Shown here one piece after another: positions 5,565-35,067 of a DNA stretch of 37,273 nt (position 1 is its first letter; the number at the start of each line of letters is the position of its first letter). This stretch comes from Hahella sp. (lineage in GTDB: Bacteria > Pseudomonadota > Gammaproteobacteria > Pseudomonadales > Oleiphilaceae). Under the pieces are notes generated by a model. That model ran no database searches. It had not been told where the DNA came from and worked only from the letters and a program-made list of their open reading frames with translations. The stretch is from the NCBI GenBank assembly GCA_028280065.1, contig JANQMN010000137.1, positions 1 to 37,273 of the forward strand, given 5' to 3'. Position numbers and translations under genes: made by a program.

Positions 5565-7394
5565 CTATGCATTGAGCAGTTCCTGTTCCTGCTCTGTTTG
5601 ATATTGTTTTCGATACAACTCGTAGTAATGTCCCTTTTGGGCCAGCAATTCGCTATGACTGCCCTGTTCTATCAGGCGACCGCTTTCTATCACCACGATA
5701 AGATCGGCATTACGAATCGTTGATAACCGGTGGGCGATTATAAAGCTGGTTCTGCCTTCCAGAACTTTCTGCAGACTGGTCTGCAGGCGGGCTTCTGTCT
5801 GCGTATCCACCGAAGCGGTCGCCTCGTCCATGACCAAAATTTGCGGATCATGGATGATGGCGCGGGCGAACGATATCAGCTGCTTCTGGCCGGTGGACAG
5901 ATTAGAGCCGCCCTCCTGCACCTCCGTATCGTAGCCATTTTCCATCTGCATGATGATATCGTGCACGTTGACCGCTTTTGCGGCGGCAATAACATCTTCA
6001 TCGGAAGCATCCAGTTTGCCATAGCGAATATTGCTTTTCACCGTTCCCGAGAATAGAAACGGCGTCTGCAACACGATACCCAAATTGGACTGCAACCAAT
6101 GCAAGCTGCGCTCGCGATAGTCAATGCCATTAATCAGTAACTCGCCCTGGGTGGGTTCATAGAATCGGCAAAGCAGCGACACGATCGTCGATTTACCGCT
6201 TCCGGTCGGTCCCACTAACGCCACGCTTCTACCTCGTTCCACCTGCAGGTTGAAGTTCGATAGCACCGGTTCTTCAGGTTTGTAAGCGAAATCAACATTG
6301 CGAAACTCTATGGAGGCAATCCTGGTATCACCACCGTCGTGAGCCTCGGCGCCTCTCTCGTAGGCATCCTGAATCAGCTGTTCAACCTTCTCTGAATCCT
6401 TAATACTGGGCTCAACCGCAAGCAAGCCGATGACCCGCTCAACACAGGCTGTGGTTCTTTGCAGGTTGGCCAAGGTTTCGCTGACTTCCAGCATCGGGTC
6501 CATCAAGGTTCTGGCATAAGTCATAAAAGCCACCAGGGTGCCCAAGGTCAGCGCACCGGCGAGCACTTCAGCGCCTCCCAGCCAAAGCGCTATACCCATC
6601 GCCAGACTGACGAATACGTTTACAAAAGGAAAAAACGCCGAAGTCAGCAATAGGTTATGCATGGACTGTCGATACATTTTAGCGCTATCAACCTGAAACT
6701 CTTCCAGGTTTTGCTTTTCCCGTACCAGGATCTTGCTGGTTTGGATGCCGGCAATACCCTCGTTGTAAACCGCAGTCAACCTGGAGTTGGTGCGACGCAA
6801 ATCCCGAGAGCTGTTCAAGATCTTCTGATTGAATATCCAAGCGACCGCGGCCAGAAAAGGAAACAATCCTAATACAACCAAACCCAGCTTAGAATCTAAT
6901 ACAAACAAGACAATGAAGATTCCCAGAATCATCGGGATTCCCCAGAACAGGTCTAAAGTCCCCCATGCTACTATCCGGGCAATTCTGGCAGTGTCAGAGG
7001 TTATCCGCGCCACCAGCCAGCCCACTGCATTGTTGTCAAAAAAGTCAAACGATAAGGTCTGTAGATGTTCGAAACTGCGCTTGCGCAGACTGTACATCAG
7101 ACTGGTCGAGAGTTTCCCCGTATCCCGAATAAAGGTCCGGATGCAGTAGATCAGCACCGCCAACATCGCCATATACAGCAAACCATAGCCAGCCAGGTTG
7201 GCGTCCTTGCCATGGGCGACGATTTCATCCACTACCTGCTTGGTGATCAGGGTAAATGAAGCTTCTATGGCGGCAGTCATCAATGCCAATACAATGACCT
7301 TGTGAAACAGCTTTTTCTGCGGCAGGTAGCACATCCGAAAAACTGTTTTCCATCCGCCCCTCTCTATGGGCGTACTATTTATTTGCTCATTCAT
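5565..7394 (-). CDS. ABC exporter half, MdlB-like, with catalytic ATPase site
   Basis: A 609-residue fusion of six transmembrane helices (about residues 20-320) and a nucleotide-binding domain. Walker A is GPTGSGKST, the signature is LSTGQ rather than LSGGQ, Walker B is ILVMDEATASVD with the catalytic Glu, and the switch is IAHRLS. It begins one base inside the stop of the upstream ABC gene (TAATG), so the two are translationally coupled and surely form a heterodimer. It supplies the active Walker B; its partner carries Asp there. Families of this type (MdlAB, BmrCD, TM287/288) export drugs, lipids or peptides. Substrate is not readable from sequence. Confidence 0.92.
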   Translation of the reverse strand: MNEQINSTPIERGGWKTVFRMCYLPQKKLFHKVIVLALMTAAIEASFTLITKQVVDEIVAHGKDANLAGYGLLYMAMLAVLIYCIRTFIRDTGKLSTSLMYSLRKRSFEHLQTLSFDFFDNNAVGWLVARITSDTARIARIVAWGTLDLFWGIPMILGIFIVLFVLDSKLGLVVLGLFPFLAAVAWIFNQKILNSSRDLRRTNSRLTAVYNEGIAGIQTSKILVREKQNLEEFQVDSAKMYRQSMHNLLLTSAFFPFVNVFVSLAMGIALWLGGAEVLAGALTLGTLVAFMTYARTLMDPMLEVSETLANLQRTTACVERVIGLLAVEPSIKDSEKVEQLIQDAYERGAEAHDGGDTRIASIEFRNVDFAYKPEEPVLSNFNLQVERGRSVALVGPTGSGKSTIVSLLCRFYEPTQGELLINGIDYRERSLHWLQSNLGIVLQTPFLFSGTVKSNIRYGKLDASDEDVIAAAKAVNVHDIIMQMENGYDTEVQEGGSNLSTGQKQLISFARAIIHDPQILVMDEATASVDTQTEARLQTSLQKVLEGRTSFIIAHRLSTIRNADLIVVIESGRLIEQGSHSELLAQKGHYYELYRKQYQTEQEQELLNA

Positions 7395-9256
7395 TAGGTG
7401 ACTCCTAACTCAATATCGCCCTGCTGTTTGGCAGAACTGACATCCTGCTCAAAGCGCTCTTTCTGACCGCTCTGAATCTCCCAAAGCTCCCGATAAAAAC
7501 CATGTTTGGTCAGCAAATTGCGGTGACTGCCTTGCTCCACCAAACGACCGTTTTGCATGACGAATACACGATCGGCCTTTTGGCAGACGCTGATACGGTG
7601 GGTAATGATCAGCAGGGTTTGCTCACCCTTCTTGCTATGCAGCGCTTGAATAATCTGCTGTTCCGTCGCCGCATCGACTGCACTCAGCGTATCGTCCAAG
7701 ACCAGGATGGGCGGTTCCTTTAACAAGGTTCGAGACAGCGTTACCCGCTGCTTTTGGCCACCGCTCAAACTCACACCGCGCTCACCGATGACCGTTTCAT
7801 AGCCTTTCTGAAAGGATTCGATGGTGTGGTGAACCGCTGCGGATTTCGCCGCTAGCACCATGGCTTCATCTGACGCTTTGAGATGACTGAACTTGATGTT
7901 TTCCCGCAGACTCCGGCTGAACAAAAAGGGTTCCTGCAACAGCGTGCCAATCTGCCCACGTATGTGCTTTCGACCGATATGTTTTAGTTCCATCCCGTCG
8001 ATCTTGATGGAACCCTTTCCATAGTCGTAAAGGCGCATCAGCAACTGTATCAAGGTGCTCTTACCGGCTCCCGTGGGTCCGACAATGGCCACTGTTTCTC
8101 CCGCGCGAATACTGAAACTCACATCATTTAACACCTGCCGATCCGGCTCATAGCCGAAACTGACCTGGTCGAACTCAATAGTCCCCTTAAAGCGCTCAGG
8201 TAGATGCATTGCCTTTGCACTGCTGGTTTCTTCAGGGGCGTCCAGAATTTCCTGAATCCGGGTGATCGCCACGGTAGCCTTACCGGCCTCGCTCAGCTCT
8301 TTGCCCAACTGACGAATCGGCCAGATCAGCATGGAGGTATAGCCGATAAAGGCAAAGTAAGTTCCTACCGTGATAACACCCTGACTAGCCAGCCAGCCTC
8401 CCCCGAAGAGGACCAATCCACTTTGCAACAGGCACAACAAATCTGAGAACGCCCAGAAGTTGGCAAACATACAGATCAACCGATAGTTGAGATCGCTATA
8501 AGTGCTGTTCTTCTCTTCAAATTTCTCGCATTCGTAATCCTGTCTGGCAAAGGCGCGAACCACACGAATACCAGTGAGGTTTTCCTGGACGATAGTCGTC
8601 AATGCCCCTTCGGCTTCATCCACCTGTTGAAACAGATCCCGCACTTGGAAAAAGAACTTTCTGGCGTAATACAGGACGATCGGCACCAATATCAACGACA
8701 ATAACGTCATGCCTGCATGTTGCATAAACATCAACGGAATCACGATTGCCATCAACACCAATGTCCTACCGATATTCATTACCTGCATGGTTAAGAATTC
8801 CCGCAAGGTATCGATATCGGATGTACAACGTTGCAATATGTCACCGCTTTCAGCGCTCCCAATGTACTTCTCAGAGAGATGGTGAAGGTGGTGATACAAA
8901 TGGTCACGCAGGCGTTGGACGGTTGATTCACAGGCACTGGCAGCCAGGTAATCTTTAAGGTACATGAACAACCCTGAAACGATGGTTACCAGTACAATGG
9001 CACCACCTGCGAGCCACAGTTGGTTGGCCAGCATTTCGGCACCGCCAGCCCAATCAATCATGCGTTGAACGAGATCTTCTTTTTCTACCCGTGGTTCGGT
9101 AAGGACCCGGTCAATCGCCTCTTTACCGATAGTGGGCACCAAGAACATAAAGTAACTGGCGATACCCACACTGATAACGGAGCCCAGGTAGTACCACTTC
9201 TTGTTTCGAATCAGGTCGATCAGTACCTGATATTGGGAATGAGATTTCGTACTCAC
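7394..9256 (-). CDS. ABC exporter half, MdlA-like, with degenerate ATPase site
   Basis: A 620-residue membrane/ATPase fusion with six transmembrane helices and a nucleotide-binding domain. Walker A is GPTGAGKST, the signature LSGGQKQR is canonical, and Walker B is ILVLDDTLSAVD, where Asp replaces the catalytic Glu. This substitution is typical of the MdlA/BmrC-type subunit of asymmetric heterodimers. The start is a GTG at 9256 with weak AGAGAC upstream. It is the first structural gene after the leader region and terminator at 9320-9490, so its expression is probably set by read-through of that terminator. It overlaps the next gene by one base. Confidence 0.92.
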   Translation of the reverse strand: MSTKSHSQYQVLIDLIRNKKWYYLGSVISVGIASYFMFLVPTIGKEAIDRVLTEPRVEKEDLVQRMIDWAGGAEMLANQLWLAGGAIVLVTIVSGLFMYLKDYLAASACESTVQRLRDHLYHHLHHLSEKYIGSAESGDILQRCTSDIDTLREFLTMQVMNIGRTLVLMAIVIPLMFMQHAGMTLLSLILVPIVLYYARKFFFQVRDLFQQVDEAEGALTTIVQENLTGIRVVRAFARQDYECEKFEEKNSTYSDLNYRLICMFANFWAFSDLLCLLQSGLVLFGGGWLASQGVITVGTYFAFIGYTSMLIWPIRQLGKELSEAGKATVAITRIQEILDAPEETSSAKAMHLPERFKGTIEFDQVSFGYEPDRQVLNDVSFSIRAGETVAIVGPTGAGKSTLIQLLMRLYDYGKGSIKIDGMELKHIGRKHIRGQIGTLLQEPFLFSRSLRENIKFSHLKASDEAMVLAAKSAAVHHTIESFQKGYETVIGERGVSLSGGQKQRVTLSRTLLKEPPILVLDDTLSAVDAATEQQIIQALHSKKGEQTLLIITHRISVCQKADRVFVMQNGRLVEQGSHRNLLTKHGFYRELWEIQSGQKERFEQDVSSAKQQGDIELGVT

Positions 9257-9319
9257 TGTTTTTGTCTCTAGTTAAGCTCTACTTCACGGACAAATCAGTC
9301 CGTTTGGGTTAGCGCGGAC

Positions 9320-9346
9320 AAAAAAGCCCGCATGAATGCGGGCTTT
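9320..9346 (-). terminator. Strong intrinsic terminator in the exporter leader
   Basis: On the minus strand AAAGCCCGC (9338-9346) pairs with GCGGGCTTT (9323-9331), followed by a run of six T (9320-9325). It lies 64 bp upstream of the first exporter gene and downstream of the leader ORF, in the orientation of both. A terminator here would be useless unless it is conditional or ends an upstream small transcript. Confidence 0.85.
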
Positions 9347-9433
9347 AACGGAATACGAATAAAATTAGATTTCGTGACTCCAACCCGCTAATCCTGAAGA
9401 CGGGTCGGCACGAATGTGACTAGCTACCCGTCA
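9323..9433 (-). promoter_or_regulatory. Candidate transcription attenuator with alternative stems
   Basis: On the minus-strand RNA five arms can pair in mutually exclusive ways. Arm 1 GACGGGT (9426-9432) overlaps the stop codon of the leader ORF and pairs with arm 2 ACCCGTC (9399-9405). Arm 2, extended to CCGACCCG (9401-9408), also pairs with arm 3 CGGGTTGG (9380-9387), with one G-U pair. Arm 3, read as GCGGGTT (9382-9388), also pairs with arm 4 AGCCCGC (9338-9344), again with one G-U pair. Arm 4 is the 5' arm of the terminator and pairs with arm 5 GCGGGCT (9325-9331). This 1:2, 2:3, 3:4, 4:5 chain is the classical layout of ribosome-controlled attenuation. The direction of control is not decided by the sequence. 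Confidence 0.6.
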
Positions 9434-9490
9434 GCAAGATCCTCTTGGCGCACCAAAGACGCCGGTATGTCCGGTATAAATGCTCATCAT
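9431..9490 (-). CDS. Candidate leader peptide of the ABC exporter operon (19 residues)
   Basis: ATG at 9488-9490 to TGA at 9431-9433 encodes MMSIYTGHTGVFGAPRGSC. AAGG lies about 10 nt upstream. The stop codon is inside the first arm of the downstream RNA stems, so a ribosome pausing at the end of the ORF would block that arm. I do not recognise the peptide. The ending GAPRGSC, with Pro-Arg-Gly close to the stop, is the kind of C-terminus that can arrest ribosomes, but this is inference. A second, shorter minus-strand frame (MINKLWINKQ, 9503-9535) lies upstream. The element parallels the BmrB leader of the heterodimeric BmrCD exporter in Bacillus. Confidence 0.5.
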   Translation of the reverse strand: MMSIYTGHTGVFGAPRGSC

Positions 9491-9566
9491 ATTGATCAGA
9501 CCTTATTGTTTATTGATCCAAAGTTTGTTGATCATGGTTACCGATTGACGGGTTAAAGTAATTAGG

Positions 9567-9583
9567 GTTCGCTGTTTGCGAAC
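9567..9583. promoter_or_regulatory. Inverted repeat upstream of the exporter leader
   Basis: GTTCGC and GCGAAC are perfect 6-bp arms separated by TGTTT. It lies about 80 bp upstream of the leader ORF and overlaps sequence where a promoter for the operon is expected (a TAATTA is at 9559-9564). It may be an operator. No regulator gene is adjacent. Confidence 0.35.
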
Positions 9584-9590
9584 AAGGACT

Positions 9591-9809
9591 CAACTTAGTG
9601 GAAAAAAATTTAGAACGCAAGAAAAAAATTAAATAAATTCAAGTGCAGACTCAGATAATCTTCCTTGAGCCATTTGTCCATTGTCTTCCATGTCCGCAGG
9701 ATGCGCTGACGGTTGGCCTTGCATTGCAACTTACACTAGCCTTGCTGGGGGATGAAGTTCAACAAGCGTTCTGGAAGCGTCCCTTTTTGGTGTCGGCCGG
9801 CGTTGCTTC
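9591..9809. other. Non-coding stretch between exporter leader and GNAT gene
   Basis: The stretch includes an A/T-rich part with two A runs (9602-9640) followed by mixed sequence up to the GNAT stop. I see no supported gene. The plus-strand open frame across it runs antisense into the GNAT gene and has no family resemblance. Confidence 0.4.
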
Positions 9810-10229
9810 TTATGCATCTGAAATTAGCCTTTTACCCAAACCAACAACCTCATCCGTTGAATAGGACAAATTGTTGTAAAAGCCTAATACGCGCTCATTA
9901 GTACTACGAACAACTATGTTTAGCTTCGGGCACCCCATTTCCGTAAGCACATTTTCTATATAAGCCATTAGTTTCTGACCATACCCAGAACCTTGATGCT
10001 CTGGGTTAACCGCAAGATAAAATACGGAACCTCTATGACCATCGTAACCCGCCATCGCAGACGCGATAAGTTTGGAACTGACAGTGCCGACAAAGAACAG
10101 ATCGGGCTGGAACTGAACCTTTCGATCAATATCCTTGTTCGGATCATTCCAAGGCCGAGTCAGACCACAATCTTCCCAGAGTTCGATAACGTCTGCCCTA
10201 TCCGCTTCTTTATATATTCGAATTTCCAT
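9810..10229 (-). CDS. GNAT acetyltransferase, YpeA-like
   Basis: This 139-residue protein has the GNAT fold. Strand 4 and the acetyl-CoA loop read VFYLAVNPEHQGSGYGQKL (Q/R-x-x-G-x-G/A type), and motif B follows at RVLGFYNNLSY. The N-terminal EADRADVIELWEDCGL is typical of the YpeA subgroup. YpeA-type proteins acetylate unknown small molecules or proteins. The gene sits in a region of accessory debris: a fragment of a second, closely similar GNAT copy lies at 11053-11094, and a broken toxin gene lies just upstream. It may once have been a mobile cassette. Confidence 0.88.
   Translation of the reverse strand: MEIRIYKEADRADVIELWEDCGLTRPWNDPNKDIDRKVQFQPDLFFVGTVSSKLIASAMAGYDGHRGSVFYLAVNPEHQGSGYGQKLMAYIENVLTEMGCPKLNIVVRSTNERVLGFYNNLSYSTDEVVGLGKRLISDA
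9907..9948 (-). repeat. Copy 1 of a repeated GNAT segment
   Basis: This ~42-bp segment inside the GNAT gene (coding for about VLTEMGCPKLNIVV) is nearly identical to 11053-11094. On the plus strand both copies read CGAACAA, then TATGTTTAGCTTC, then GGCACCCCATTT and GTAAGC, differing at only a few positions. Confidence 0.75.
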
Positions 10230-10272
10230 GCTTGTTTACGCAAAACGCAGATGCGTCTCATGCCTGCAACTG

Positions 10273-10562
10273 TTAAAGCCTATTTTGCCAAAAACCCGGC
10301 TTGCGTCTCTTATGAGCGACCGCCAATACTTGAACCTCACTCCTTGAAACCCGGTATAGTACCTTAAAAGGGAATGTTTTCATCTTCACCAAGTAAATGA
10401 ACTCGTTCACTTTTTTGTGCCTCTCCGGAGCATTGCATACATAACTCATCGTTCGTTCAAACTCCGCAAGAAACAATCCTCTAATCCCGGACGTTTATCT
10501 TCATAGTATACTATTTGACTTAAATACTCTTTCTCAGCAGAAGGATGAAAATTGTATCTCAA
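10273..10562 (-). pseudogene. Frameshifted RelE/ParE-family toxin
   Basis: The C-terminal part (10273-10476) is ParE-like: ERHKKV, VLYRVSRSEVQVLAVAHKRRKPGFW. The N-terminal part is in another frame upstream: from a TTG at 10562 it reads RYNFHPSAEKEYLSQIVYYE then DKRPGLED. The frames meet at about 10478, where one base appears missing before FLAEFERTM. Joined, they give a normal ~95-residue ParE-like mRNA-interferase or gyrase-toxin-type protein. The TTG overlaps the stop of the antitoxin gene (TTGA), the usual coupling of such pairs. As read, the toxin would be truncated; a sequencing error or programmed frameshift is possible but less likely. Confidence 0.7.
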
Positions 10563-10783
10563 CGCAATAGTTCCCTCGCTTTTTTCAATGCCACATCTGC
10601 TGGTATCGCCTCAACCAAGCCATCATCCAGCTCCTTAGCTCTTTTTGCAGCCTCGCAAACCCGCTCTTTTTCAACATCGGCCTCTGATTCTTCTTCAAGA
10701 CTAAGGAGAAGCTTTTGAGCCAACTCAGCCCGTTGATTGAAAGGCAAATTCATAGCTTCTATTTCAACTTGATCTTTCTTCAT
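10559..10783 (-). CDS. Addiction-module antitoxin component
   Basis: This 74-residue, acidic, helical protein matches the putative addiction module component type that accompanies ParE-like toxins. It contains LPFNQRAELAQKLLLSLEE near the N-terminus and ends ADVALKKARELLR. It is intact, with TTATTTCCCTC on the plus strand giving GAGGGAAAT ahead of the ATG. The downstream toxin overlaps its stop by four bases but is frameshifted. With no working toxin the gene would be under no selection as an antidote, unless it protects against homologous toxins elsewhere. Confidence 0.75.
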   Translation of the reverse strand: MKKDQVEIEAMNLPFNQRAELAQKLLLSLEEESEADVEKERVCEAAKRAKELDDGLVEAIPADVALKKARELLR

Positions 10784-11160
10784 CTTATTTCCCTCATCTA
10801 TAAAAAAGAACTATCGCTTTATCACTTGCAGCATGGGGCCGGAGAAAACTGACACTTTTTGCGCTTTGAACAAACCGTGACAGTCTGCAGAGGTCAAGCC
10901 AACAGCGCGTTCAGGGCTGCACTTGTTAGGAATTTACTTTCAAGCCATTCTACGGCTCTTAATTACCATGCTGTAAACCCAAATTTGACCCTGATGCAAG
11001 TGAAGCAGGCAATTGACGAGGCTAGGATAATTTGAGGCCACCCATTATCCCCCGAACAAATATGTTTAGCTTCAGGCACCCCATTTCTGTAAGCGCTTTG
11101 CCGAAGCTTGTTAAATTCACCGACGCTAGATTGACCGCTTTATTGCCTGCTCATGCAAAG
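10784..11160. other. Intergenic stretch with cassette and GNAT relics
   Basis: It holds no intact gene. Two relics are visible: the GNAT fragment at 11053-11094, and a TTGTTAGGA at 10923-10931 resembling an integron core site with an AGCCAAC about 20 bp to the left. That spacing is too short for a working attC. The rest shows no structure I can name. Confidence 0.5.
11053..11094 (-). pseudogene. Fragment of a second GNAT acetyltransferase gene
   Basis: About 42 bp nearly identical to 9907-9948 in the intact GNAT gene, in the same orientation. The similarity ends on both sides, so this is a remnant of a duplicated or replaced copy. The response regulator gene begins about 65 bp further on. 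Confidence 0.7.
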
Positions 11161-32343: not shown

Positions 32344-35067
32344 TTAATGCCAATCCAATTCGGCAAGTTGAGGCGTTCTTTCAATGAGGTTTGTCGGGAA
32401 AAACATTTCTGCTGCTTTTCTAACTTCTTCTTTCGCCGCCATCAACTTTCCCTGATTGACAAGACTTATTCCGCGATAGTAGTACAAACTGGGATTTTCG
32501 CTATCCAGGGCTTCGGATTTCTCGAAGTACAAGTCGGATTGCAGATAATCCTGAACTTGGGAATGATAATGCGCCAGATCGATATAAATGTCAGGATCGC
32601 TTATTCCATCGCCAAGGTCTTTTTCAGCCAGCTCAATCGCTTTGAAATAATAGGCTTTAGCTTGATCCTGTCCTTTTTCAATTTCATTCACGGTATCAGC
32701 CAAGTTCCCGTAAATCGCATAGGAATTAGGGGACAATGCCATTGCACGTTCGAACTTGGACCTTGCAGACGAAAAATCTCCTAAAAAATAGAGGACTGTT
32801 CCATGGTTTGTCAGCGAGTAAAAATCAGCATCCAAGGAGTTGATACGAGAATATATTTCATTGGCATCTTCTAACCTTCCAAGCTGGAAATAGCCTGCAG
32901 CCAGATTTATCAAAATAGTGACTTTGTCAGGATAGAGATCCAAAATCCTCTGGTATGCGGATATCGAACTCCCGATATCGTTGATCTTCCAATAAAGCTC
33001 TCCCATTTTCTGGTCTATTCGCCAACGATAAATGGAAGACTTGGTCGCATAGGCCGTTAGTTTCTGCAACGCTAACTCGTAGTTGCCATCGCTTGCTTCA
33101 ATGTCACTATAGGCCAAATACCAGTCGGTACTTCTATTTTTCACCTCGCCAAGGAACAGACGCGCCGTTTCCAGATCGCCAATGGCAGAAAAATAGTTCG
33201 CCATTGTTATCAACGATTCACTACTTTCAAATCTGTTTTCAAGTAGATACATGCAAGCAGGTTTTGCCATTTCTAACCAGTGCTTAGTAGCATCTTTGAA
33301 ATGCGCTTGCTTATATAGGAAAAACTGGCATTTCAATACTAACGCCGGTTCATGGGTCGGCGATATTTTCAGCGCCGATTCCAGAAGCGTTTCCACCGCA
33401 TCGAACGTCAGTTTGGATAAATTGGAATCCAGCTTCGCCTTTGCTTGCAGAAAAATAAAGTTTGCCCGGCTGCGCCAGCGTTCGTCATCGCTGTTCCTTT
33501 TACGACCGCTGCTCTTAGGACTGGTCAGTCCAAAATAGTCCGTTACAGCCGCTATGCTATCTTGTGAGATATTTCCCAGCTCTTCCTTATCGTATAAACG
33601 CTTAAATATCAGTTGCCCTTGCGTTTCCTCCGCCTTTTGAATGTACAGGTTGTAATCCACACCGCCGCTACCGGATTTGAGCTTACCGGTCAACGCATAT
33701 TCTGCATTAATCGCTTTACTTGCCACCAATATCTCACGAGTTGAAGAGCCTTCTTCTATATCCAACATTTCGATATCAAATTCGGTGGCCAAGCTTCTCT
33801 CCAGCTGCAAACTTGCACCCCGCGCCAAAACCGATAGTTCCGTGTCCCTGCCCTGGTATCGGATAGGTGCAAAGGCAATCTTAACCATCGGGTTGTCAAT
33901 GGCGTTACCGACTGTTGATTCGGAGTAATTTGCCGGGCTATCCAAACGGCTGGAAACTAAATATACCCATACAGAGACCCCAATCAGAACTGCCGCCAGA
34001 CAAAAACTGAAAAATGCAAATCTGTTCGGCGTAGATTTCCAAGCTTTGGCGTTAGTATCTTCAACGCTTTTTCGTGCTTCCCCGGCTATCGATACAGCGG
34101 CATGAGAACTTTCGGCAGTCTCGGAGAGCGCCACGGTTTGCAGTTGCGGCGAGGTTGACTTGGTCATGGTCTTCGTTAAAACCTGAATCACCTGCAACGC
34201 ATTCTGCGGACGTAATCTCGGATCCAGGTTCAAACACCACTCCAATACCCCAAGAAACGAATTGCTGTAGTGTTTGGCATTCTCATGCTCCGTTAGCGGC
34301 TGTAACGGGTCCGGCAAACCATCCCTTACATGGTCGCTTCGCTCCGTACCCTCGACCGGAGGATGGCCGGTGATCAGTTTGTAGCATACAGCGCCGACCG
34401 CATAGATATCGCTCCACGGTCCCTGCCGTTTGCTGTTGCGGCTGTATTGTTCGGAGGGAGAAAAACCGGCGCTGGCAATGGCGGATACACTTTTTGAATG
34501 GTCCGCCAGATTCTGCCGAGCGGCACCGAAATCAATCAACGTGGGCTCGCCTTCCCGGCGCAGGTAGATATTGCCCGGTTTGATATCGCGGTGCAGCATA
34601 CCTGCCTTATGCACTTCAACCAGACCATTAAGAATCGGCAAAATGATCTGCTTGATTCTGGTTTCCGGCATTCCACCTGCAAAGTGGGTGCGTTTCAGCT
34701 CGTCAGACAGACTTTCGCCCAGTTCATAGTCCATGGCGATGTAGCCTGTACCATTAGCCTCGATAAAATTGGAGACGCGCACGATATTGCGGTGGCGAAA
34801 CTTGTTCAATCGTTTCGCTTCATCGAGAAAATAATTCAAACCCTTTTGAAAGTTGACATAACGGCCGCTTTTCGGCTGGATGGTTTGCGTATCGCCGGCC
34901 CGGCCGGCAATATCGTGGGGAAAGAACTCCTTCAGCGCGACGTACCCTTCCAGCCGAGTATCCCAAGCCTGGTAGGTAATTCCGAAGCCGCCCGCACCGA
35001 GTACTTTTTCGATGCGATAGCGATCAACAAGAGTTCCCGGTAATAAGGAATAGTCAAGCTCATCCAT
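32344..35067 (-). CDS. Hanks-type Ser/Thr protein kinase with TPR repeats
   Basis: A 907-residue protein. The kinase domain occupies residues ~15-300: glycine loop VLGAGGFGITY (24-29), Lys46 in VALKEFF, catalytic loop LHRDIKPGN (Asp161), metal loop IDFGAAR (Asp179). All key residues are present, so it is active. A single transmembrane helix lies at about 349-372 (FFSFCLAAVLIGVSVWVYLV). The C-terminal ~500 residues lie across the membrane and contain a CsgG/TolB-N-like segment then TPR repeats, for example LINLAAGYFQLGRLEDANEI and YYYRGISLVNQGKLMAAKEE. It is followed by a gene for a secreted protein. Confidence 0.92.
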   Translation of the reverse strand: MDELDYSLLPGTLVDRYRIEKVLGAGGFGITYQAWDTRLEGYVALKEFFPHDIAGRAGDTQTIQPKSGRYVNFQKGLNYFLDEAKRLNKFRHRNIVRVSNFIEANGTGYIAMDYELGESLSDELKRTHFAGGMPETRIKQIILPILNGLVEVHKAGMLHRDIKPGNIYLRREGEPTLIDFGAARQNLADHSKSVSAIASAGFSPSEQYSRNSKRQGPWSDIYAVGAVCYKLITGHPPVEGTERSDHVRDGLPDPLQPLTEHENAKHYSNSFLGVLEWCLNLDPRLRPQNALQVIQVLTKTMTKSTSPQLQTVALSETAESSHAAVSIAGEARKSVEDTNAKAWKSTPNRFAFFSFCLAAVLIGVSVWVYLVSSRLDSPANYSESTVGNAIDNPMVKIAFAPIRYQGRDTELSVLARGASLQLERSLATEFDIEMLDIEEGSSTREILVASKAINAEYALTGKLKSGSGGVDYNLYIQKAEETQGQLIFKRLYDKEELGNISQDSIAAVTDYFGLTSPKSSGRKRNSDDERWRSRANFIFLQAKAKLDSNLSKLTFDAVETLLESALKISPTHEPALVLKCQFFLYKQAHFKDATKHWLEMAKPACMYLLENRFESSESLITMANYFSAIGDLETARLFLGEVKNRSTDWYLAYSDIEASDGNYELALQKLTAYATKSSIYRWRIDQKMGELYWKINDIGSSISAYQRILDLYPDKVTILINLAAGYFQLGRLEDANEIYSRINSLDADFYSLTNHGTVLYFLGDFSSARSKFERAMALSPNSYAIYGNLADTVNEIEKGQDQAKAYYFKAIELAEKDLGDGISDPDIYIDLAHYHSQVQDYLQSDLYFEKSEALDSENPSLYYYRGISLVNQGKLMAAKEEVRKAAEMFFPTNLIERTPQLAELDWH

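Follow-up and report, generated by a model that had tools for sequence, protein, structure and literature searches.

A conserved leader upstream of a heterodimeric ABC exporter in Hahella sp. and Reinekea-type relatives: a likely ribosome-mediated transcription attenuator

The genes of a heterodimeric ABC exporter in Hahella sp. are preceded by a conserved RNA leader that is probably, at about 0.78 as judged from its sequence and those of its relatives, a ribosome-mediated transcription attenuator. The leader lies in a stretch of 37,273 nt that was analysed as a whole (hereafter the window). All the sequence evidence is consistent with a conserved attenuator in which the position of the ribosome is the likely switch, and the pump would most likely be made only upon stalling of a ribosome in a 19-codon open reading frame (ORF), as under ribosome-blocking antibiotics. 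The initial annotation of this DNA had read the region as translation-controlled attenuation, and the conserved ORF, the conserved pairing arms and a promoter-like site upstream of them lend support to that reading. The kind of control is known; the host group, the target and the layout are new.

The elements on which the argument rests are the following, in the order of transcription; arms are numbered, and 1:2 denotes arm 1 paired with arm 2.

9593..9620, minus strand: candidate promoter, picked by eye (-35 TTGCGT at 9620-9615, 16-nt spacer, -10 CTAAGT at 9598-9593)
9567..9583, minus strand: 5' hairpin GUUCGC-aaaca-GCGAAC, directly 3' of the expected transcript start
9546..9554, minus strand: arm 0, AACCCGUCA, 5' of the AAGG, with arm 1 or arm 3 as pairing option
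9501..9504, minus strand: Shine-Dalgarno-like AAGG, read in the sequence 10 nt 5' of the ATG
9431..9490, minus strand: leader ORF, MMSIYTGHTGVFGAPRGSC, with its ATG at 9490, 19 codons and TGA at 9433-9431
9426..9433, minus strand: arm 1, UGACGGGU, of which the stop codon forms the first bases
9399..9408, minus strand: arm 2, CCGACCCGUC (ACCCGUC at 9405-9399), partner of arm 1 or arm 3
9380..9388, minus strand: arm 3, GCGGGUUGG (GCGGGUU at 9388-9382), partner of arm 2 or arm 4
9338..9346, minus strand: arm 4, AAAGCCCGC, 5' arm of the predicted terminator
9331-9326 and 9325-9320, minus strand: arm 5, GCGGGC, and T6, the 3' arm and U tract of the predicted intrinsic terminator
7394..9256, minus strand: exporter subunit A, ABC type, 620 aa, Walker B LVLDD (degenerate catalytic site)
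5565..7394, minus strand: exporter subunit B, 609 aa, Walker B LVMDE (canonical)

The 19-codon ORF with its AAGG and with its stop inside arm 1, and the five chained arms of which the last two form the terminator upstream of the exporter, can all be read in the sequence as the initial annotation had described them; the 64 bp that it gave between the terminator and the first exporter gene come to 63 nt when counted to the GTG at 9256. A pattern-based scan of positions 8800-10000 listed neither a terminator nor a promoter, and no consensus sigma-70 site. The terminator hairpin and its six Ts are legible directly in the window, and the scan probably missed them because its rule allows the stem to swallow part of the T run. 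Rfam 15 produced no match on the window at gathering score, the best permissive match being a weak one to Trp_leader (26.9 bits against a gathering score of 41, E 0.0019). A dispersed repeat was considered and rejected, as a DNA search of the same genome with 301 nt returned one full copy and 13 other matches of only 15-32 nt. The LVLDD/LVMDE pair is the mark of heterodimeric exporters in which one of the two ATP sites is degenerate. Solved bacterial chains matching subunit A include TM_0288 and YheI; for neither subunit did any of the 25 NCBIfam families listed reach its curated cut-off.

By itself, the chain of arms in the window is weak evidence, since the whole chain was regained in 24 of 400 shuffles in which the middle was randomized and arm 1 and the terminator were held fixed (154 of 3200 over the eight sequences compared below). 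The 201-nt fold of the region has a z of -3.5, with 0 of 200 shuffles as stable. It is the relatives that settle the question: wherever the close family has the exporter, in seven genomes, the ORF, its stop within arm 1 and the five arms recur, and the conservation that the first reading had called for is thereby borne out.

These relatives were gathered at several taxonomic depths. A scan of public genomes returned two close orthologues, in Reinekea forsetii (L009, 74%, with the family label Saccharospirillaceae) and Reinekea sp. (L010, 68%), and five further loci that are distant. Within the window's own family the exporter occurs in 1 of 151 genomes, which is that of the window (E <= 1e-100, eight candidates scored per genome). 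At the level of the order, matches were found in 25 of 390 genomes (E <= 1e-90), and the R. forsetii family holds the exporter in 7 of 22 genomes (E <= 1e-120), one of them with two copies; none of 368 further genomes of the wider class gave an orthologue at E <= 1e-140, with three candidates scored in each. Each of these seven Reinekea-type genomes carries the leader. Once duplicates had been removed (L017, L018 and L046, equal to L009, L010 and L045, respectively), eight distinct leaders were available, namely those of the window, L009, L045, L010, L019, L020, L021 and L022, of which L009 and L045 are near-identical. Subunit A of the relatives is 62-75% identical to that of the window, and a tree places the window within the Reinekea-type clade (98/98) with R. 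forsetii as its neighbour (91/89); the long branch of L062 in this tree is to be disregarded, its protein frame having been wrong. Because the exporter is present in a single one of 151 own-family genomes and is placed inside the Reinekea-type clade, exporter and switch were probably gained together by horizontal transfer. One R. forsetii-like genome (G525) carries leader and exporter twice (L045 on contig C1, L046 on C2), and the contig of one copy, 24.6 kb long, may be a plasmid or may have arisen by duplication in the assembly.

A covariance model of the leader, R1, built from six of the eight, scores the window at 98.5 bits and the next place in the same genome at 27.1 (150 of 993 candidates scored). 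Over the 22 genomes of the R. forsetii family, all matches above 40 bits among those listed are exporter leaders. L021 and L022 score 31-32 bits, inside a background that reaches up to 37.5, and are thus recognized by their genomic place. The weak R1 matches L085/L166 and L088/L167 were rejected as leaders of the same kind because, judged by ORF layout alone, they run opposite to an ORF or fall at the end of a gene.

Throughout the eight leaders the ORF measures 18-22 codons (19 in the window, L009, L045, L010 and L019), is served by a purine-rich ribosome-binding sequence and has its stop codon at the identical base of arm 1. A frame with ATG and Shine-Dalgarno-like sequence that reaches arm 1 is found in the stop frame in 8/8 leaders, versus 1/16 among the other two frames. 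The encoded peptides diverge: Met-1 is the sole invariant column of their alignment, and none of the eight contains a run of one residue longer than two. Counted without gaps from the start, Ala stands at residue 14 in the window, L009, L045, L010, L019 and L020, and at residue 15 in L021 and L022. In L021, TAA replaces TGA, at the cost of one 1:2 pair and with the stop retained, which argues that stopping at arm 1 matters. A design of this kind would keep the length and position of the ORF and leave its sequence free.

Upstream of the ORF, a promoter-like site (TTGC..., 16 nt, CTAAAT-like) was seen by eye in 8/8 leaders, the -10 of L022 (AATAAA) being poor; it points to a start of transcription 5' of the leader and, as the attenuation reading entails, not downstream of 9320. 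The motif [A/G]CCCG follows 32-39 nt 3' of the -10 in all eight, and GCGGGC with five or six Ts closes each leader. The 5' hairpin is likewise found at this place in 8/8 with differing stem sequences (Fisher p 1e-5 over seven leaders, a figure that kinship inflates; 0.49, not significant, in R. forsetii alone). A hairpin inside the ORF looks constant by eye and is not significant (p 0.08).

All eight leaders possess the full chain. Pairs were counted on hand-anchored arms, since the MAFFT alignments A1 and A2 and the model-fitted alignment A4 misplace arms in some rows. Standard pairs occupy 69 of 80 cells for 1:2, with double changes at 2 of 10 pairs; the corresponding counts are 62/72 and 4/9 for 2:3, 65/80 and 0/10 for 3:4, and 78/80 and 0/10 for 4:5. 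Helix cores are invariant and covariation is confined to the flanking pairs, as is expected if every arm serves two partners. The inner stem of 3:4 is kept with changed sequence in comparisons over seven (Fisher p 6e-4), L022 having none, and that of 1:2 is not significant (Fisher p 0.08), values that overstate the case because the sequences are related.

The mechanism that we propose presumes that the ORF is translated and that translation is coupled to transcription, the transcript starting near 9586. On the one hand, an unhindered ribosome reaching the last codons or the stop would hide arm 1, arm 2 would pair with arm 3, and arm 4 would be left free to build the 4:5 terminator, so that the exporter would be off. 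On the other hand, a ribosome held before about codon 15 would leave arm 1 free to pair with arm 2, and arm 3 would take arm 4 before arm 5 had been synthesised; in this 1:2 + 3:4 state RNA polymerase would continue into the exporter genes. The signal would be a general slowing of elongation, for example by ribosome-blocking compounds that the pump may export. Such general slowing, rather than a shortage of one amino acid, is most likely since no residue run exceeds two and the peptide is poorly conserved.

Folding with and without arm 1, a check put forward with the initial annotation, turned out as expected for the cores and unevenly at full length. Core RNAs without arm 5 adopt 1:2 + 3:4 in 8/8 leaders, and full cores with the first 17 nt masked adopt 2:3 + 4:5 in 8/8, the two sets excluding each other; with both the mask and the removal of arm 5, 2:3 forms in 5/8, and 3:4 persists in the window, L009 and L045. 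For the window, moving a ribosome footprint along the leader keeps P(3:4) at 0.96-1.00 as long as the P site lies within codons 1-15; the value is 0.05 when codon 17 or 19 occupies the P site, and 0.28 when the stop codon does. Over the full-length scans as a set, the switch is clear in two of eight leaders, partial in three and absent in three. Between the states without a ribosome and with a ribosome at the last codon, P(3:4) drops clearly in the window (0.99 to 0.05) and L010 (1.00 to 0.13), and partially in L021 (0.99 to 0.59, and 0.02 one step further) as well as, with arm 0 competing, in L019 (0.47 to 0.00) and L020 (0.28 to 0.00); no switch is seen in L009 (1.00 to 0.98), L045 (1.00 to 0.94) and L022 (0.05 to 0.19). 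As the terminator is favoured at equilibrium in seven of the eight full-length RNAs even without a ribosome (P(4:5) 0.88-1.00), antitermination would have to be kinetic, that is, a matter of timing. In L020 the terminator is disfavoured in nearly all states (P(4:5) 0.21-0.37; 0.83 at codon 15). We argue from these models that a stall before about codon 15 would raise read-through.

A further element, arm 0, may extend this scheme. The 5' untranslated region, which holds the conserved [A/G]CCCG of arm 0, shows complementarity both to arm 1 (Fisher p 8e-5) and to arm 3 (p 0.004), both values being inflated by kinship. Pairing 0:1 would free arm 2 for arm 3 and pairing 0:3 would hide arm 3, either of which would tip the balance towards the terminator in the absence of a ribosome. 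Arm 0 would thus keep an untranslated leader terminating, and we infer that induction would need a ribosome both engaged and stalled. This need can be likened to the translation requirement of bmrB in Bacillus subtilis, where blocking bmrB translation abolishes lincomycin induction (PMC4191407). Three states would follow: off when untranslated, with arm 0 on arm 1 or arm 3; off with a freely moving ribosome; and on with a stall in the first 15 codons or so. The Ala codon at 14 or 15 would put a chloramphenicol-type stall near the last permissive position, chloramphenicol having been described to stall ribosomes in a context-dependent way, after Ala, Ser or Thr (PMC11505993); the tie between this stalling and Ala-14/15 is one that we infer.

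A second, large family of the order (f39), in which a homologue of 36-50% identity occurs in 112 of 200 genomes (E <= 1e-120), shows a shortened version of this logic. Upstream regions were examined for 98 of the 112, 38 of them from the search and 60 fetched, L074 being left out with its 7-nt flank. In 19 of the 98, TGAGC is present with a CCGCTC arm no more than 95 nt behind it; the other 79 lack this motif. An ORF with ATG and Shine-Dalgarno-like sequence ends exactly at the TGA in 12 of these 19, versus 3 and 1 in the other frames, and this frame control is the more independent part of the evidence, the pairing figures being partly circular because the motif was the entry criterion and was chosen after some of the sequences had been viewed. 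A looser rule was matched by 15 of the 98 upstream regions. Here arm 1 can pair straight with the 5' arm of the terminator (arm 4), and under a strict terminator rule the arm 1:arm 4 duplex reaches -12 kcal/mol or lower in 6/98 upstream regions versus 0/198 shuffles (six for each of 33 of the 98). Seventeen loci entered the folding and 15 were scored, L120 and L122 being one sequence type. Before arm 5 is made and without a ribosome, P(1:4) is at least 0.82 in 12/15 and 0.00-0.43 in L051, L062 and L067, and a ribosome placed at the stop leaves it at no more than 0.39 in 15/15, both counts being subject to the same partial circularity. The full RNA without a ribosome favours the terminator in 11/15, and L095 lacks 4:5 in either state. 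For L023 and L075, the upstream regions carry short ORFs of another kind (MRFDIVLELRP...) close to a terminator whose arm match is weaker (-8.3 kcal/mol), and perhaps represent a third architecture.

Taken together, these features allow a tentative extension, which we consider possible but rather doubtful: a six-arm switch with three translation states, built in two architectures for one exporter family across the order and stalled at Ala-14/15. If true, the five-arm pumps of the Reinekea type and the three-arm pumps of the second family would form a class of Gram-negative stall-induced exporters. As a separate observation, L010, L019, L020 and L022 (by eye) and 13 of the 15 scored second-family upstream regions contain a further CCCG-type arm between the terminator and the exporter start, which could pair with the 3' arm of the terminator only after read-through.

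Other readings of the leader were weighed against stall-induced attenuation. A chance arrangement around an ordinary terminator finds some room in the shuffles of the window alone and is scarcely credible in view of a chain kept in all eight leaders, which are otherwise diverged. A terminator and antiterminator answering to a bound protein or small molecule, with the ORF as an incidental feature, is very unlikely: five alternative arms would also suit a riboswitch or a protein-bound leader, and the conserved 5' hairpin and arm 0 fall outside a simple ribosome model, but no Rfam family reaches gathering score, an in-frame ATG with Shine-Dalgarno-like sequence is present in 8/8, and the stop is fixed in arm 1, as TAA in L021.

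Classical amino-acid attenuation of the trp/his type, in which the stall comes from shortage of one charged tRNA, is alike in logic and geometry and could draw on the permissive Trp_leader match. We nevertheless judge it quite improbable, as a run of regulating codons is absent (none exceeds two), only Met-1 is invariant and the target is an exporter; Ala is present at 14/15 in 8/8, yet one Ala codon, or two in a row, would make for a weak signal. Finally, the short ORF might encode the exported substrate, a secreted peptide or RiPP precursor, the terminator just setting the ratio of peptide to pump, and its place directly 5' of an ABC exporter, with a peptidase gene following in the window, would fit. 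That the peptide sequence is unconserved whereas its length, frame and stop in arm 1 are kept makes this very unlikely; no double-glycine-type leader was seen by eye, no such peptidase is among the genes scanned downstream in six relatives, and arms 1-3 would lack a reason for retention. Ribosome-mediated attenuation is therefore the reading that we prefer.

In the attenuator of the trp operon, the position of the ribosome chooses between antiterminator and terminator, and Trp codons are needed; the present leader differs in having no codon run and one extra pairing step, by which a ribosome at the stop would, unlike in trp, help the terminator by hiding arm 1. The gene msrD is reportedly controlled by leader-peptide attenuation. 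Its macrolide-responsive, ribosome-mediated control has been described (PMC10314930), the target being a streptococcal ABC-F resistance gene that encodes a translation factor, whereas here it is an ABC exporter. In B. subtilis, chloramphenicol, erythromycin and lincomycin induce read-through into bmrCD, and translation of the leader is required; leader peptide, alternative stems, intrinsic terminator and heterodimeric ABC drug exporter are all shared with the present case, slowed translation leads to read-through there, as is proposed here, and a predicted anti-anti-terminator is also discussed for BmrB (PMC4191407). The BmrB ORF has 53 residues and contains the terminator within its coding region, a trait absent here, where 19 codons end with a stop in arm 1 at 9431 and the terminator (9346-9320) lies wholly downstream; the BmrB host belongs to another phylum, and control by AbrB belongs to the bmrCD side.

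The initial annotation knew of no comparable system for an exporter of this type in Gram-negative bacteria. As a statement about Gram-negative bacteria in general this does not hold, since PA5471.1, upstream of the MexXY anti-repressor gene armZ in Pseudomonas aeruginosa, senses ribosome-targeting drugs through a proposed transcription attenuation, with a short leader peptide, predicted downstream terminators and an efflux output, as in the present case (PMC12057347). By the same source, PA5471.1 differs in acting on an anti-repressor gene and thereby on an RND pump, not directly on a pump operon nor on an ABC exporter. For the exporter type itself the statement stands as far as was searched: no report of leader-peptide control in Gram-negative bacteria appeared among the papers listed from open-access literature, most subscription papers lying outside it, and for Reinekea with attenuation the papers listed look unrelated. 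The short upstream ORF toiL of topAI-yjhQ in Escherichia coli senses several classes of ribosome-targeting drugs and differs in controlling translation of the next gene, in Rho-dependent termination and in its toxin-antitoxin target (PMC12121999). A survey listed 205 candidate attenuated ABC transporter genes, including a multidrug export operon in lactobacilli (PMC2965389). The present leader suggests that in Gram-negative bacteria an ABC exporter operon may be controlled directly through a leader peptide; it could help to flag pumps that may have ribosome inhibitors as their natural substrates, and could serve as a test bed for the way in which translation stress is read out.

The gene neighbourhood of the exporter varies. 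The M3 oligopeptidase gene that the initial annotation had included in the operon does follow the exporter in the window, and in the window only; as an operon trait it falls away, and the oligopeptidase was rejected as a partner, since scans of genes downstream of the exporter in six relatives showed none. The genes scanned there encode instead a GNAT protein (L010, L019), another ABC half (L020), a sulfatase (L021), an MFS protein (R. forsetii) and, after one 174-aa ORF left unscanned, an FAD oxidase (L022). Upstream of the leader, the window contains a GNAT acetyltransferase gene (9810-10229) and one for an Unstab_antitox addiction-module protein (10559-10783), a stretch (9810-10783) that looks accessory, and a second, partial GNAT-like frame was noticed by eye at about 11022-11120. 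Farther away, positions 32344-35067 encode a protein of 907 aa that in its N-terminal part resembles numerous kinase-type models of PADLOC (mad6, PD-T4-6) and is probably an ordinary Ser/Thr kinase rather than a defence protein.
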